Virus record (IMG/VR): IMGVR_UViG_3300009408_000036
Coordinates: 1-21,945 of that record
Direction: 5' to 3' (one strand)
Source of the DNA: a virus
Length of the DNA stretch: 21,945 bases
A program made the position numbers and the translations under genes. Within the stretch, counting starts at the first letter, position 1; each line of letters begins with the position of its first letter. Under the pieces are notes generated by a model. That model was not told the DNA's origin and did no database searches. It worked only from the letters and a program-made list of their open reading frames with translations. This document shows positions 2,305-18,745 of the stretch, one piece after another.

Positions 2305-3372
2305 ATGGATATCAAAGAAATGCAGGCTCTGTTTAGAGCCACCGCTGAGGTTTCACCGGAAGGTGAAGCGGCTTACAAAGCTTTTGCTGCTGCTCTCACC
2401 ACTCCTATTCTTCAGAAAGTTGAACTAGAATCAATCATGAGACAGCTTTTTGCTGTCGAACGGCTTGCGCCAGGTGCACAAGCTAGTTATCCAGTTGCGG
2501 AAGATTTTGAGGTACCTGTGTGGGTTCTCCCTGGCCTTGGGTATGTCGCTCAGAACTTTATCGAAGGTATTGGGGAAGAGGTTTACGTTCCCACTTTTAC
2601 ACTAAGTTCTTCTGCTGATTGGAAGATTACTTATGCTCGTGATTCACGTATAGATATTCCACAGAGAGCTGCTGCTCGTGTTGCTAAAGATCTGGCTAAC
2701 TATGAGGAAGAGTGTGGTTGGCGTGTTATTGTCCCAGCTGCTACTTCTTCATTTGCTGGTAAAGGTCTTTTAGGTTCACGTCCTGCACCTATTTATGAGA
2801 TGGACCCAACATCAACTGGTGCCGGGTATCTTTCTCCTCAGCTTATCAACAAGATGTTGGTTGGCTTCAAGCGTGTAGGTAGGACCCTTACTGACCTGTA
2901 TGTCAGTCCCGAAGATGCTGCCGATATTCGTGAGTGGACAGACACCGATATCGATCCAGTAACTCGTCGTGAGATTTTCCAGGCTTCCGGTATGGGTAGT
3001 GTTTGGAATGTTCGTCTCCACGAGGTACAGCACCTTGGTGCCACAGGTCTTTATAATATTAACTCTTCGGATTCAGAATATGGTAAGTTCAATGCTGATG
3101 CTTCTAATACCTTCAATTCGTACGTCTTGGATAATCCGAACAAGACTAATGCTGATGGTACAGTAGCTACACTGGGTGAAACCCAGATTTACGGTTTCGA
3201 TCTTACCACCAACGATTCGCTGGTCATGCCTATTAAGAAAGAGTATGAGGCTATCGAAGATCCGACCCTGTTAAGAGTCCAGAAGCAGGGCTTCTTCGGT
3301 TGGATGGAAGTAGGCTTTGCCGCCCTCGATCCTCGTATGCTTGGTATGGGCGTAATCGATCGCTCACTGTAA
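2305..3372 (+). CDS. Major capsid protein (HK97-like fold inferred)
   Basis: A 355-residue protein with a strong AAGGAGG site. Features typical of this class: a helical N-terminus (MDIKEMQALFRATAEVS), an early Pro/Val region (SYPVAEDFEVPVWVLPG) and a strand-turn-strand with a long helix (SRIDIPQRAAARVAKDLANY). A mid-protein segment LYVSPEDAADIREW resembles the motif seen in the P-domain helix region of many phage capsid proteins. There is a C-terminal beta segment (KKEYEAIEDPTLLRVQKQG, then FFGWMEVGFA). Size, the scaffold and decoration genes just upstream, and the private strong terminator all agree. It looks richer in GC and in C-ending codons than its neighbours, as expected for the most abundant virion protein. 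No long N-terminal delta domain is evident, consistent with a separate scaffold gene. Confidence 0.88.
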   Translation: MDIKEMQALFRATAEVSPEGEAAYKAFAAALTTPILQKVELESIMRQLFAVERLAPGAQASYPVAEDFEVPVWVLPGLGYVAQNFIEGIGEEVYVPTFTLSSSADWKITYARDSRIDIPQRAAARVAKDLANYEEECGWRVIVPAATSSFAGKGLLGSRPAPIYEMDPTSTGAGYLSPQLINKMLVGFKRVGRTLTDLYVSPEDAADIREWTDTDIDPVTRREIFQASGMGSVWNVRLHEVQHLGATGLYNINSSDSEYGKFNADASNTFNSYVLDNPNKTNADGTVATLGETQIYGFDLTTNDSLVMPIKKEYEAIEDPTLLRVQKQGFFGWMEVGFAALDPRMLGMGVIDRSL

Positions 3373-3454: not shown

Positions 3455-3769
3455 ATGCTTAAGTTTTTGATTTATAGTATCTTAGTAGAAGAAGTTACAG
3501 AGATAGTGGTTAAGTCGTCGTTACTAAATCAATTGAAAAAACGACTGCTTAGATCAGATAGCAAGGTTTGCAATCTGTTACACGATTTATTGGATTGTGG
3601 TTTTTGTTTTTCATTTTGGGTATCGTTGTTAGTAACGATATTGTTTTTTGATAATAGAGTGTTGTTAGAGGAAAAGGTGCCTTTATTGGTGTTTGCTTTG
3701 TTGTTACACAAAGCTTCTAATACATGGCATAACTTTTTTGATTTTATTAGGTATTTTAATAACAGATAG
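3455..3769 (+). CDS. Small membrane protein, DUF1360-like
   Basis: A 104-residue protein starting at ATG 3455, about 30 bases after the capsid terminator. No clear Shine-Dalgarno is visible. It has two hydrophobic segments (about residues 51-65, FSFWVSLLVTILFF, and 75-85, VPLLVFALLLH) and a CxxCxxFWVSLL signature at the entry of the first (DCGFCFSFWVSLL). This arrangement, a CxxC just before a transmembrane helix and a second helix near the C-terminus, resembles the DUF1360 family of small membrane proteins of bacteria and phages, whose function is unknown. It is T-rich and looks unlike its neighbours in composition. Among virion genes it could be a moron, for example acting on the host envelope, but that is speculation. 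Confidence 0.6.
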   Translation: MLKFLIYSILVEEVTEIVVKSSLLNQLKKRLLRSDSKVCNLLHDLLDCGFCFSFWVSLLVTILFFDNRVLLEEKVPLLVFALLLHKASNTWHNFFDFIRYFNNR

Positions 3770-3786
3770 GAAAAGGAGGAAACATT

Positions 3787-4245
3787 ATGTATGGAGTAGT
3801 TAAAAACATGGGACAAGCATGGGCTTATGCCTTTAAACGGGCTGTGGCTCCTGGCGGCGAGATACCTCTTGCTGAATTATATGAGCAGTATGGTAAGAAA
3901 TATAATATTTCAGAAGGGGAAGAATTCGTTAAGTGGTTGCAGGAAGTCAAACTAGGCAAATCACCTAATTGGGCCGTAATCATTGATGACCCTGCCAAGC
4001 AGTCAGTAGTCGAAACAGGAAAAGATACTAGTAATCTAGTTAGTCCCATAATTAAAAAAGAGATTACCGTTATGGATATTGTAGAGCTTTCTGTTCGTAA
4101 AGCTAGGAAAAAATTACCTGAAATAAATGATATTAGGTTGTTAAAATATGCTTTACAGGAAGCTAGCGGTAGATCTGGTAAAGATAGCTTATGTAATTTA
4201 TTACGCAGGCGGATTCAAGAATTGGAGCTGACGCGTAATATATAA
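3787..4245 (+). CDS. Unknown phage protein, two helical parts
   Basis: A 152-residue protein with a strong AAAGGAGGAAAC site before ATG 3787. The first part (to about residue 60) is mixed helix with aromatic residues (NMGQAWAYAFKRAVAPGG, LAELYEQYGKKYNISEGEEF). A polar linker of about 35 residues follows. The C-terminal half (about 95-150) is strongly helical and basic (IVELSVRKARKKLPEIND, then LCNLLRRRIQELEL). There is no signal peptide or membrane helix. I do not recognise the family. The basic C-terminal helices might bind nucleic acid or a virion partner. It opens the run that leads into the tail-fibre block. Confidence 0.6.
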   Translation: MYGVVKNMGQAWAYAFKRAVAPGGEIPLAELYEQYGKKYNISEGEEFVKWLQEVKLGKSPNWAVIIDDPAKQSVVETGKDTSNLVSPIIKKEITVMDIVELSVRKARKKLPEINDIRLLKYALQEASGRSGKDSLCNLLRRRIQELELTRNI

Positions 4246-4271
4246 AAAAATAAAATAATGGTAGAGTAACT

Positions 4272-5573
4272 ATGAGTAGAAGTCTTTTGAGGCAGTTAGA
4301 ACAGATTAGATGGTCGGCTACTTATGATGATAGTATAGCCAATGTTAATACTATCGGTGTAGCCGAACCAACATTGTCAGGCTCGTTAGAGCAGGATCTA
4401 AATGTTATACGTACTCTTATGAAGGGTGTTAAGGGTACAGCTAACTGGTACGATGACTTAGGTAAGTATTTTGATCCTACAAATACAGATGTAGCTAGTT
4501 CAGAATACAAAACCTTAAATCTTTCTAATTTAAAAAATAATACATTAGATGCTAAAACCATTATAGTACCTGTAACAGCTGATAATAATGGTCAAGGGTA
4601 TACTGTTAGTGGTACATCCACTGGTGTATCTATAGCCACTACGGTACCATATGCTAAACCGAACAATCGTATAGGTTTGCCTATATTTGCTAGTACCGCT
4701 AATAATGGTACTTACTATGATGAAGGTGGTTTAGATAGGGTTGTTAGGGCTGATGTTATAAATGTAGACACTGGCCAGGAAATACAGGATAACAACGGTT
4801 ACACTATTTACGCAAAACTACATGACGGTGTAGATTTTGGTGGTGTAGGTGATGGTACTGATGTTTATGCTCGTTTTTACGCTAATGATGTAGCTGTTGA
4901 TTTAAGCACTGTTTCTGGTGGCGTTCCATCAGCTGTAAAAATTATATACCCATATCGTAAGCATTTAAGCGATATGATGGAGTACGATTGGTTACGTACA
5001 GACTTCGTAAACTCTTGGGAGGGTGACGTAGCTCTTGTAGATGATATCCATAATTTGTGGGCATTTACTGGTGCTACCGATAATGATAGGTCTGCCCAGC
5101 CTTGGAATAATATTAGCGGTAATTATTTACTTAACTCCAACCCTGCCAGCCTTAAGGGTGCCTTAGACGCTCTTAATGACGGTATAGGTGACGCAACTTA
5201 TGTTGGAGCTACTTACTTAACTTCTGGTGAGAATATCACACAATCTTTAATTGCTTTAGATACCAATTTAAAGAATGTGTCTGATACTCTTAATGCTGTT
5301 GCCCCAGAAAAATATATAGAGTCTCCTGCTACTACTATTCCTAAAAATACTCCTCATACATTACCAGGTGGGGCTTCTTACACACCAGAAAGTACATCTG
5401 GTAGGGAGGGCGCTAATATGGATATTTATGTCGATGGTCAGCTATTAGCCGCAGATACAGGAGTTGATGGGGCCAATGCTGATCGTGATTACGGCGAGAC
5501 TTCTACTATTACAGTAACATTTAGGTTTGATATACAAGCTGGCCGTAACATAACTTATGTTATTCGTAAGTAA
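4272..5573 (+). CDS. Tail fibre-type virion structural protein
   Basis: A 433-residue protein. Residues 37-67 carry the motif SLEQDLNVIRTLMKGVKG followed by ANWYDDL, a helix-then-NWYD segment that I know from the N-terminal third of many phage virion and fibre proteins. The middle is beta-rich with repeated Gly/Asp/Thr turns. Around residues 300-345 is a short helical zipper (ITQSLIALDTNLKNVSDTL) of the kind that trimerises fibres. The end (about 345-433) is a compact beta domain containing MDIYVDGQLL and ITVTFRFDIQAGRNITYVI. The ribosome binding site is weak (GTAGAG). It is a likely structural component of the tail tip or a head or tail fibre; the exact place in the virion cannot be told. 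Confidence 0.72.
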   Translation: MSRSLLRQLEQIRWSATYDDSIANVNTIGVAEPTLSGSLEQDLNVIRTLMKGVKGTANWYDDLGKYFDPTNTDVASSEYKTLNLSNLKNNTLDAKTIIVPVTADNNGQGYTVSGTSTGVSIATTVPYAKPNNRIGLPIFASTANNGTYYDEGGLDRVVRADVINVDTGQEIQDNNGYTIYAKLHDGVDFGGVGDGTDVYARFYANDVAVDLSTVSGGVPSAVKIIYPYRKHLSDMMEYDWLRTDFVNSWEGDVALVDDIHNLWAFTGATDNDRSAQPWNNISGNYLLNSNPASLKGALDALNDGIGDATYVGATYLTSGENITQSLIALDTNLKNVSDTLNAVAPEKYIESPATTIPKNTPHTLPGGASYTPESTSGREGANMDIYVDGQLLAADTGVDGANADRDYGETSTITVTFRFDIQAGRNITYVIRK

Positions 5574-10041: not shown

Positions 10042-10590
10042 ATGTCTATGATAGAGAATATTATTCGTTTCCTTGGTGATATTAGATTGTATAAAGGTGG
10101 CATAGTTTTATTCGGAGAGAGTAGCTACCGTGTTAAAGGTGAGGAAGCCAGAGAGATTGATGGTCTAGTTAAGCCTGGGGACGTGTTGTTGCGTAGATAT
10201 GAGCATTATCTAGGTAGTCTTCTTATCCCAGGGTATTGGTCACATACAGGTATTTATGTAGGTAATCATGAGGTTGTTCATGTACTTCATGATGGTGTGG
10301 TTAAAGAGGATCTATTGAATTTCTTAAGATGTGATGATGTTAAAGTATTACGAACTTCTAATAGCACATTAACCATATCTGCTGTAGAAAAGGCTTTAGA
10401 ATTATATGATAAGCATATAAAGTACGATTTTGAATTCGATTTTGAAGATAACACAAAAATGTCATGTTCTGAATTTATTGATTACTGTTACGGACATCCG
10501 AGATATTCAAATACTATGATCTCGGGAAAGATAGTTCCAGATGATTTGGAGAACACTATTTTTACCGAAGTAGTTTGGAGCAGGGATTAA
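10042..10590 (+). CDS. Permuted NlpC/P60 (YiiX-like) cysteine peptidase/amidase
   Basis: A 182-residue protein with a GGAGG site. It shows the order typical of circularly permuted papain-like enzymes (YiiX/YebB, PF05708 group): VKPGDVLLRR at 43-52, SHTGIYVG at 67-74 with catalytic His68, a strand region GNHEVVHVLHDGVVKEDLL, and MSCSEFIDYCY at 140-150 with nucleophile Cys142. The His precedes the Cys, opposite to classical NlpC/P60 enzymes. Such proteins hydrolyse amide bonds in peptidoglycan peptides or act on lipids. There is no signal peptide. Set among fibre genes, it could be a virion-associated wall hydrolase that helps DNA entry, or a processing enzyme. The family call is firm, the role is inference. 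Confidence 0.85.
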   Translation: MSMIENIIRFLGDIRLYKGGIVLFGESSYRVKGEEAREIDGLVKPGDVLLRRYEHYLGSLLIPGYWSHTGIYVGNHEVVHVLHDGVVKEDLLNFLRCDDVKVLRTSNSTLTISAVEKALELYDKHIKYDFEFDFEDNTKMSCSEFIDYCYGHPRYSNTMISGKIVPDDLENTIFTEVVWSRD

Positions 10591-16065: not shown

Positions 16066-16967
16066 GTTCTGAAATGACCAAACTTAGAAAAGAGGACTCA
16101 AGTTTGTACTATTACATAAAAGATATAGTCCTTAAAGATTATATCGAATTTGAACAGAAGGCAGAGTTAATGTACCTTGATTCGGTATCATCGCCTTTAG
16201 ATAATAGTTATGTTTATGAAGCTCTAGTTGAGTTCACACCTAAGCCTTCTGATCGCGGCAGAGGCCTTGTTTACTTTGATGACACGGATTTAAATTGTTT
16301 AGTTAGTACTACTACTTATTCTGGCACACCAGAGCAAAAGAATAGGGTTGTGGTTTATTCAACCACTAGTTCTGGGACATTAGAAGTGGTACCTAGAAGT
16401 GAGTATATAATTGATTATATAGATGCCAGAATAATTACTTCTGGTACCATAGAACCTACACACATAGACTTCTATTGGAATTACATAAGTATCGTCGATG
16501 AGTGGGCCGCTATAGAAGCTGCATCACCACCAGTAGTTGTTATAGATATTCATGGTACAGATAAAAAAGGTTACCAACTTGGTGGTGGTAAAAAAGATAT
16601 AAGAAAGGTCGATATACATATATTTGCTTCATCTACAGCCGAAAGGAATGATCTAGTAGATAAAATTTACAACGCATTCTATAACAAGAGCATACCAGTT
16701 TATGACTTTCCTAAAGGGTCCGTGCTGGATTATGACGGCACATTCTATGGAATTAAAGATGCTGTTGATAGGGATAGTTTGTATTTCGATAGGACCACTA
16801 TTTCTGGTGTAAGCAATTTATATTTTGATAATGTTACCAGTAGACATATAAGTTTACCACTTATAATGACCCGAGGTGTTAACGAAGTTATGTTAAGTGA
16901 CTTAAATGCTTATAGGGCCAAAATAAGTTTTGCTATGTATTCATATAATGATAGGTATGATATTTAA
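16062..16967 (+). CDS. Candidate tail terminator protein
   Basis: A 301-residue protein starting at GTG 16062, four bases inside the previous gene, with GAGGTGA as ribosome binding site. The N-terminus is helical (SLYYYIKDIVLKDYIEFEQK), followed by an inserted beta region to about residue 165. Then comes VVVIDIHGTDKKGYQLGGGK with RKVDIHIFASSTAERNDLVD and KIYNAFYNKSIPVYDFPKG. This pattern, a strand 'vdihifA.t..er..L.d.I...l' with a following 'ipvyDF' segment, is characteristic of tail terminator/neck (gpU-like) folds. Its place just before the tube gene agrees. It is longer than typical terminators because of the inserted beta region. Confidence 0.65.
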   Translation: MSSEMTKLRKEDSSLYYYIKDIVLKDYIEFEQKAELMYLDSVSSPLDNSYVYEALVEFTPKPSDRGRGLVYFDDTDLNCLVSTTTYSGTPEQKNRVVVYSTTSSGTLEVVPRSEYIIDYIDARIITSGTIEPTHIDFYWNYISIVDEWAAIEAASPPVVVIDIHGTDKKGYQLGGGKKDIRKVDIHIFASSTAERNDLVDKIYNAFYNKSIPVYDFPKGSVLDYDGTFYGIKDAVDRDSLYFDRTTISGVSNLYFDNVTSRHISLPLIMTRGVNEVMLSDLNAYRAKISFAMYSYNDRYDI

Positions 16968-17152
16968 GTAACCTATCTAAGTATAGAACTGGAAAAGGAA
17001 AAGGTAGCTATTTGCCTCAATAGCTAGCGGGTACTATATACCAACCTAGTACTCTTTCGGCTACTAACTGAATACCGGCTAGGAATTTCTGCTGTTTATC
17101 CTATATACCGGTAAATAGTAAACAGCATTATAAAAAAATAGGAGGAAAAAAT
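16968..17152 (+). ncRNA. Structured leader RNA candidate before the tail tube gene
   Basis: This is the longest gene-free stretch in the window. It contains an 8-bp perfect hairpin (TAGCTATT 17005-17012 with AATAGCTA 17019-17026, 6-base loop). A long-range 10-base match follows (17024-17033 with 17073-17082, nine of ten pairing). A 5-bp hairpin lies inside it (TAGTA 17047-17051 with TACTA 17062-17066). An 8-bp stem (GCTGTTTA 17091-17098 with TAAACAGC 17119-17126) can be extended by CTAT/ATAG after a 2-base bulge. A short alternative hairpin (GGTA 17030-17033 with TACC 17039-17042) competes with the long-range pairing. The ribosome binding site (ATAGGAGG) follows the last stem. It has no T run and is not a tRNA. 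A regulatory or processing leader is inferred. Confidence 0.45.
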
Positions 17153-18745
17153 ATGGCTAGAAATAGAATTATATACGCTTCTGAAAGCGTATGGGCCAAC
17201 GGTGAAGTGCTTTATCGTGTTCAGTCATTTGGTAGCACTACTACCTTCAACAGTGAAGATATATTCGAATTAGGGCACCTGGATATCATAGATATAGTCG
17301 ATGACGTCCCATCTGTGGCCATTACGCTGAACACCAATGACTTTGGTGACGTTAGAACTTTGGCGGTTTTGGCACAGTTAAGTCCAGAAAAAATCAAAAT
17401 GGACGCTACAGCTACCAGCTCTAATGCTAATCTTGTTGTTGTTAGTGGTACTTCTCTAACACCTACCACCACATTTATGCATGGTGTATCACTAGCTGAC
17501 TTTGCTATCACTTGTGGTAACCTTCCAGGTGTAACCATCTGGTCTCCTGTACAGGAAGAGTGTTCTATTGGTACTTTATCTAACAACATCGACCAGACAG
17601 TGTTCTTGGATGAAGTATACGTTAACAGTATTGAGTTTGGTTACTCTACAGGTGCCAACGCTACTGAGAACTACGGTGCTGAAACCGATAACAAGATGTG
17701 GCTATTGAATGATGGCCGTTTCGTTAACTACGACAAGTATGAACTTACTGGTACAGAAACTCAGGTTTCTTTGACTCTTGGTGCATCTGATAACGTTGCC
17801 ACCTTATCAACAGGTCTGGGCTTCTTACGTAAGGACGAAAATGGTGCTGCAGCTGTTACTTATTTTGACAGTAGCACCAATACTGTTCGTAATATAGAGG
17901 TCATTGCTGGTACAGCAGCTGATGCTACTAAGTTTGTGTATAATGCTGCTGGTCCACATGTTGTCTATTTACCAACAAGTCTAACCATCAATAACGGTGA
18001 CCGTATCGAGGTTATTTATGCTGCTGATGCTTATGGTAGCGGCACATCAAATACCTACTTTAAGGCTCTTGATGATGCCAATCGTCCTGATTCTATCGGT
18101 GCTCTACGTCAGGGCCAGATAGAGGTTTATATCGTGTCTGATAGCGATACCAGCTACGATATTGCTTGGCGTTTGACTGGTTGTACTATCTCAGCTAACC
18201 TTACCCGTACACCTCTTGCAGAGCTTGGTCACTTAGGTCCATATGACCGTCCATTGACTCTACCGATTCCGATCACAGTCAATGTTAATACCACAGCTGG
18301 TGACCTTGAGAACTGGGCTAAGGTTGCTGACCAATTGGCAGCTTTCAAGACCAATACTCTGGATGATATCGATCTTGCTGATTTGATGACTTCTGAAGAT
18401 TTGAAGCTTATTGTTAAGATCTATGGTCAGACAGATGAGGAAGCTGGCGGTACTGGCGCTAATCGTAAGATAGCTGCCGGTTCAAAATTCATCGGACAGA
18501 ATTATTTTGTTGACGGTGTTTTGAACAATGGTGGTAGTGCTTATGTTGCTGGTGATCGTGAGTACGCTCTTAAGACTATTGTAGTCGAGCACTTGAAGAT
18601 CACTGAAGAGGGTATGACTCTGGATATGGGTAACAATGCTACCCAGACCTTTAACTTCAGGTCAACTAATGACTTGTATGTTGTTAAGGGCGATGTTTCT
18701 ATTCAGAACGTCACCTCTGATTTCAAGATTCGCCGGAACGGCTAA
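17153..18745 (+). CDS. Major tail tube protein (enlarged)
   Basis: A 530-residue protein with ATAGGAGGAAAAAAT before the ATG. The opening (VLYRVQSFGSTTTFNSEDIF, ELGHLDIIDIVDDVPSVAIT) and the later echo of that phrase (LAELGHLGPYDRPLTLPIPI, then an ITVNVNTTAGDLENW segment) fit the tail tube beta fold with an N-terminal strand and inner-ring loops. The end (ALKTIVVEHLKITEEGMTLD, MGNNATQTFNF) is a typical tube C-terminus. About 530 residues is far above the usual 150-250, so extra domains, probably exposed on the tube surface, are inserted in the middle. C-ending codon use and its own leader and terminator point to high expression. It lies upstream of the chaperone pair and tape measure, as expected. 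Confidence 0.8.
   Translation: MARNRIIYASESVWANGEVLYRVQSFGSTTTFNSEDIFELGHLDIIDIVDDVPSVAITLNTNDFGDVRTLAVLAQLSPEKIKMDATATSSNANLVVVSGTSLTPTTTFMHGVSLADFAITCGNLPGVTIWSPVQEECSIGTLSNNIDQTVFLDEVYVNSIEFGYSTGANATENYGAETDNKMWLLNDGRFVNYDKYELTGTETQVSLTLGASDNVATLSTGLGFLRKDENGAAAVTYFDSSTNTVRNIEVIAGTAADATKFVYNAAGPHVVYLPTSLTINNGDRIEVIYAADAYGSGTSNTYFKALDDANRPDSIGALRQGQIEVYIVSDSDTSYDIAWRLTGCTISANLTRTPLAELGHLGPYDRPLTLPIPITVNVNTTAGDLENWAKVADQLAAFKTNTLDDIDLADLMTSEDLKLIVKIYGQTDEEAGGTGANRKIAAGSKFIGQNYFVDGVLNNGGSAYVAGDREYALKTIVVEHLKITEEGMTLDMGNNATQTFNFRSTNDLYVVKGDVSIQNVTSDFKIRRNG

Follow-up and report, generated by a model that had tools for sequence, protein, structure and literature searches.

What do the 185 gene-free bases in front of the putative tail tube gene of this uncultured phage contribute, a folded RNA or ordinary spacer? 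In the window, an IMG/VR virus record analyzed at its full length of 21,945 bases, the upstream open reading frame stops at position 16967 and the ATG of the forward-strand tube gene (17153-18745; 530 amino acids) begins at 17153; these two boundaries bear out the gap (16968-17152) from which the original prediction started. A longer, near-identical contig (L002) carries the same tube gene and leader. The window tube protein yielded no sequence match in PHROG, Pfam or PDB; a structural model predicted from 13 sequences, of low confidence (pLDDT 63), has nearly all its look-alikes among tail tube and Hcp-type proteins, including those of T5, phage 812, SPP1 and lambda. By this likeness the gene call and the tail tube assignment of the original prediction stand, with moderate confidence.

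Relatives of the tube protein were found neither in the 84,980 bacterial and archaeal genomes searched nor among annotated phages. Starting from the tube protein, about 60 loci beyond the window were reached in IMG/VR; a search with this protein gave 44 loci, and a later one with a profile built from 13 tube proteins gave 75. Through their capsid protein, the phages that carry the element are distant kin of Bacillus phage G; the window encodes a major capsid protein (2305-3372) that is a remote relative of gp27 of phage G (23% identity, E 3e-9). The window also encodes, amid structural genes, a permuted papain-like amidase of the Peptidase_C92 type (10042-10590).

Conserved layout and covariation of the leader

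Thirty distinct leaders were compared, from phages with tube proteins down to approximately 60% identity; where group I introns split the tube gene, the true first exon was located upstream. In these leaders the element lies 74-142 bases before the start codon and follows a recurring layout: a GG-N3-4-GG box, a hairpin with an outer and an inner stem (S2 and S3) and the loop (N)GCCTC(A), often AAGGA, an A/T-rich linker, the box (T)ACCAACC(T), a second A/T-rich linker, AGGAGG, and ATG. The A/T-rich stretch between the CC box and AGGAGG was seen in nearly all leaders. The corresponding forward-strand features of the window are the GG box GGAAAAGG (16997-17004), present in GG-N3-4-GG form in all aligned leaders; the hairpin TAGCTATT-TGCCTC-AATAGCTA (17005-17026), a short fused form of the S2/S3 hairpin with the loop TGCCTC at 17013-17018; the CC box CCAACC (17041-17046), which reads YCRAYC in relatives; and the Shine-Dalgarno sequence AGGAGG of the tube gene (17140-17145), whose GAGG is complementary to the CCTC of the loop. 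A 5′ module read from the sequences precedes them (16966-16986, same strand) and consists of AAGTAACCT and a small hairpin (CTAT 16973-16976 with ATAG 16983-16986); its counterpart in many relatives, with pairing assigned by reading only, is TAACTAACCT plus a hairpin, and it is absent from others.

The unpaired parts of the element are strongly conserved. The loop sequence CCTC is invariant in the 29 aligned leaders, and GCCTC occurs in 28 of them (ACCTC in L015), or in 29 of 30 when the separately found leader L033 is counted. The CC box YCRAYC occurs in all 30 leaders, compared to 1.0 expected from shuffled regions; the substitutions seen (CCAATC, TCGACC, CCGACC, and CTAACC in a hairpin-less clade) all leave pairing with a GG possible. 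This clade (L003, L004, L010, L011, L013, and L042) has lost the hairpin and kept the GG box as GGAAAAGG (or GGAAAGG, GGATAGG), followed by YYAACC some 12-16 bases on; since the GG and CC boxes are retained together, they may be the more basic part of the element. In three other leaders (L172, L173, and L192) the stretch between the upstream stop codon and the GG box has a second GCCTCA, placed just past the stop codon and in front of a hairpin. The sequence AACTAACCTCTnTATTnAATAGA is intergenic in the 5′ modules of L014 (from 4167), L006, L015 and L019, and lies inside the upstream gene, where it encodes NKLTSLFNRT, in L016 (4690), L024 (2453) and L041 (2075); gene conversion or chance could possibly account for its occurrence in both kinds of places.

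When the 29 leaders were folded individually with the loop held open, each formed a hairpin of the conserved kind; this constraint biases the folding, and the case for the hairpin therefore rests on covariation. The leaders were aligned by MAFFT on sequence only, without use of structure, and 17 named pairs were scored, 15 in the hairpin and two between the GG box and the loop. Across these 17 pairs and 29 leaders, 67.9% of the cells were paired, compared to 56.5% (sd 1.5) in shuffled alignments; both sides had changed in 89 cells vs. 39.1 (sd 6.3), and the covariation score was 0.373 vs. 0.199 (sd 0.021). None of 500 shuffles reached any of the three values, and every slid version of the named structure scored below the observed one. 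Because shuffling ignores kinship, a tube-protein tree was built and null alignments were simulated along it, with columns evolving independently and the parsimony number of changes multiplied by 1, 1.5 or 2.5. In the hairpin (15 pairs), 66.6% of the cells were paired vs. 45-47% in these tree-based nulls, with 89 double changes vs. 33-50 and a score of 0.47 vs. 0.19-0.22; the observed hairpin values were reached by 0 of 900 null alignments. An alignment fitted to a covariance model, leaving out the window and adding L033, gave the same picture (96 double changes vs. 41.5, sd 6.3; covariation score 0.481 vs. 0.239). Double changes are present at all 15 hairpin pairs. At the GG/CC pairings covariation is impossible, as the partners are nearly invariant. 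RNAalifold predicted no pairs on the MAFFT alignment, which is probably too divergent for this program, and the counting of named pairs was used for this reason.

The hairpin structure is thus kept by compensatory changes across homologs. The compensatory-change check in relatives that accompanied the original prediction has in this way been carried out, with a covarying hairpin between conserved boxes, and covariation across 29-30 relatives gives strong support to the view that the gap holds a folded RNA and not spacer. For the core (16997-17046) the spacer reading is refuted; the stretch 17054-17131 could still be spacer.

Inverted repeats and folding of the window leader

The window leader by itself proves nothing, as it folds at the level of shuffled sequences (minimum free energy -42.9 vs. 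-39.5, sd 4.0; z -0.85); folding of the core only, with a mean z of -1.6 over 29 leaders, is suggestive only. The four inverted repeats originally described exist in the sequence: 17005-17012/17019-17026 (8 of 8 pairs), 17032-17042/17110-17120 (10 of 11 pairs, 67 bases apart), 17090-17098/17119-17127 (9 of 9 pairs), and a shorter one at 16950-16956/16971-16977; folding beyond chance was not seen in this sequence. Of the proposed stems, the hairpin at 17005-17026 has a counterpart in relatives and the others do not. The long-range stem, and its competition with a local hairpin for GGTA (17030-17033), whose possible partners are TACC 17039-17042 or the long-range sequence, found no support and are not the conserved fold; the competing fold is private to the window phage and the near-identical contig L002. 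The long-range stem and the hairpin TGCTGTTTA/TAAACAGCA (17090-17127, forward strand, recognized as an inverted repeat) draw on bases 17054-17131, a segment absent from relatives; the distance from the CC box to the ATG is 41-80 bases in relatives and 112 in the window. The stems 17032-17042/17110-17120 and 17090-17098/17119-17127 thus involve sequence without equivalent in relatives, and either chance or an addition private to this phage may explain them.

Folding also places a local helix around the CC box of the window (GTACTA 17031-17036 with TAGTAC 17047-17052; forward strand, 17031-17052; z -2.9), and the mean over relatives was -3.5 vs. -2.7 kcal/mol; as a general feature this helix was rejected, being strong in the window, L014, L015, L022, L170 and L173, and near chance elsewhere. 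No sigma-70-like promoter was predicted inside the leader, a weak test given that the phage may use its own factors.

Specificity and comparison with known leader RNAs

A first covariance model (R1), applied to 0.7 Mb, recovered L033, which was not part of its training set, with an E-value of 0.0036; in that search the window reached only E 0.32, its hairpin being short. A second model (R2), built without the window, ranked the window copy first among its matches in the window (19.9 bits, E 0.032, unfiltered); a slight leak remains, since R1 had been used to fit the R2 input alignment and had itself been trained on a set with the window. Significant matches (E below 0.01) occurred once per record in 31 of 38 virus records, and in the records searched every genuine copy precedes the tube gene in the same orientation. 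The best two secondary matches (G012:194785 and G016:177650; E 0.02-0.04) lie in coding sequence, lack the loop, and were discarded. A first loose motif scan of IMG/VR gave mostly chance hits among the matches listed, and two strict scans of the whole collection returned tube leaders and chance matches only. R2 misses the more distant clades (L182-L191; L038, L039, L045, and L193; L181 and L190); these are related by eye only and were left out of the covariation statistics.

Among the 4227 families of Rfam 15, the best match to the window leader had an E-value of 0.28 and a bit score below half of the gathering threshold, and the best match to the L006 leader an E-value of 1.1; the original statement that no known riboswitch or ribozyme is recognizable agrees with this search. 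In the open-access literature searched, no leader RNA was found before a tail tube gene. The element is called here a new RNA family of a known kind, the structured phage mRNA leaders, in a new place; as a candidate family in uncultured phages it is missing from Rfam. This leader RNA is tied to one structural gene and has been kept over tube proteins that differ at approximately 40% of their residues.

Among the closest known arrangements is the gene 32 operator of phages T4, T2 and RB69, likewise a structured phage mRNA leader approximately 70 bases upstream of a start codon, with an A/U-rich stretch leading into the ribosome binding site of a gene whose protein is needed in large amounts; there, a pseudoknot 67 bases upstream is the binding site of gp32, which from it extends along the A+U-rich tract as far as the ribosome binding site (PMC3014915). 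In contrast to this pseudoknot, the tube leader is supported as a hairpin, with an invariant CCUC loop and GG and CC boxes; it precedes a virion structural gene, and no sequence relation between the two has been demonstrated. The gene 43 operator of T4 and RB69 resembles the tube leader as a single hairpin upstream of the ribosome binding site whose stem varies more than its conserved loop (PMC3014915), but the tube leader has extra boxes on both sides and a hairpin further from the ribosome binding site. The pseudoknot operator of ribosomal protein S15 (rpsO) is a leader structure competing with the ribosome binding site in a model of autogenous control (PMC3014915); it belongs to a cellular gene, and no sequence or structural match to the tube leader was found. 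The manA, wcaG and PhotoRC-II motifs, structured 5′ leaders of cyanophages with putative functions, were, like the tube leader, found computationally and are supported by covariation (PMC2864571). These known motifs precede metabolic, exopolysaccharide and photosynthesis genes, whereas the tube leader is confined to the front of a tail structural gene and lacks a match in Rfam. Phage operators were known before replication genes (PMC3014915).

Proposed function, rival explanations and mobile elements

How large phages balance the output of their packed late operons is mostly unknown. Folding and covariation show the structure of the leader; its function may be inferred from the order of a structured element, an A/U-rich stretch and a ribosome binding site, which matches the layout of the gene 32 operator and therefore favors an operator. 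The leader is a conserved cis-acting RNA of the tube mRNA that most likely acts as a translational operator (probability approximately 0.6) and probably controls the amount of tube protein made. Its core would be formed by the GG box, the GCCUC-loop hairpin and the CC box (YCRAYC), followed by the A/U-rich stretch and the ribosome binding site. The loop and boxes might be presented to a protein, either the tube protein or another late phage protein, and/or the GCCUC loop might pair with the GAGG of the Shine-Dalgarno sequence; the GG box and CC boxes would serve to clamp the RNA in one of two alternative folds. A tentative extension is a new family of feedback RNAs in tailed double-stranded DNA phages, with the GCCUC hairpin and boxes as a binding site for the tube protein or an assembly partner, or with a loop that toggles between GG box and Shine-Dalgarno sequence; if true, tube synthesis would be matched to tail assembly, much as RNA-phage coat protein and T4 gp32 regulate their own messages. 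With helix, loop and boxes named, translational control of tail assembly becomes directly testable.

The evidence for loop pairing with the Shine-Dalgarno sequence is weak; such pairing may be a complementary or alternative step. The complementarity extends to GCCTCC/GGAGGC in L181 and L190; the clade with a GCCCCC loop (L038, L039, L045, and L193) shows no clear complementarity to its own Shine-Dalgarno sequence. The pairing was rare in nested folding of the leaders, a method blind to pseudoknots. A correlation between loop and Shine-Dalgarno sequence across clades was rejected as confounded by clade-wide Shine-Dalgarno usage: at other genes, GAGG-type sequences account for 5 of 37 in L003, L004, L010, L011, L013 and L042, vs. 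143 of 319 in the rest. A pairing of the GG box with the loop CC is conceivable, but the bases on both sides hardly vary; with a helix of up to 15 pairs directly next to the box, steric reasons make a local pseudoknot doubtful. On these grounds, and for lack of variation to judge it by, the pairing was set aside. Pairing of the GG box with either CC box is plausible.

Control of translation has to be weighed against a role in RNA processing or stability, whereby a 5′ hairpin left by endonuclease cleavage would protect a monocistronic, abundant tube message. The presumably abundant structural protein encoded downstream, the persistence of the hairpin even where a foreign endonuclease-like gene has inserted just upstream, and the precedent of T4 gene 32 mRNA, cleaved 71 bases ahead of its start and stabilized (PMC3014915), are consistent with such a role. 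It is nevertheless unlikely, as a simple protective hairpin needs neither the invariant CCTC loop nor the GG and YCRAYC boxes; conservation of this kind suggests that the RNA is recognized or adopts a tertiary fold. A covarying helix flanked by conserved unpaired boxes is also aptamer-like, as expected of a ligand-sensing riboswitch or small ribozyme; yet none of the Rfam families rose above chance, so that a new class would be needed, and the element occurs before one structural gene only, in one copy per phage record, whereas riboswitches for metabolites are usually found in several genomic contexts, ahead of metabolic or transport genes. A sensor or ribozyme is accordingly quite improbable.

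A signal at the DNA level, a palindromic promoter, recombination site or homing target, would suit the surroundings of the leader: homing-endonuclease-like genes end right before it in nine relatives, and other relatives have group I introns in the tube gene, which makes the region a mobile-element hot spot. Such a signal would not explain why stem sequence is free to change as long as pairing is kept. In the stems G-U pairs outnumber A-C mismatches about two to one (46 vs. 21), which favors an RNA in the same sense as the tube message; the control structure slid by +1 shows a similar excess (47 vs. 22), and the G-U count is therefore supporting, not decisive. Taken together, a DNA signal has very little probability. 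Ordinary spacer with chance repeats, to which the shuffle-level folding of the single sequence would correspond, is hardly credible against covariation and box conservation across relatives. The preferred reading remains a translational operator.

Homing-endonuclease-like genes stand between the upstream gene and the leader in L003, L012, L019, L022, L024, L026, L041, L169 and L175; those of L003 and L022 were assigned by likeness or position only. The inserted genes combine CapR repeats, an MTES_1575/Vsr-like nuclease and a Mom/GNAT-like C-terminus, with an HNH type in L024. The GG and CC boxes persist despite these insertions. In L178, the leader region is immediately preceded by a gene for an OmpA/OprF-like outer-membrane protein (3647-4780), which may have been captured from a host or may betray a chimeric contig. 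The tube gene is split by at least one group I intron in many relatives, several of the introns lying near the SEDIF and DVVDDVP codons. In a search of 12 relative loci against Rfam, only group I introns were matched; RF00028 had no match in the leaders searched and occurred only inside the tube genes of L019 (3302-3521, 4709-4939) and L026 (4101-4352, 4418-4649, 4717-4938). Similar, intron-like sequence is also found in L024, L031, L033, L041 and L043.
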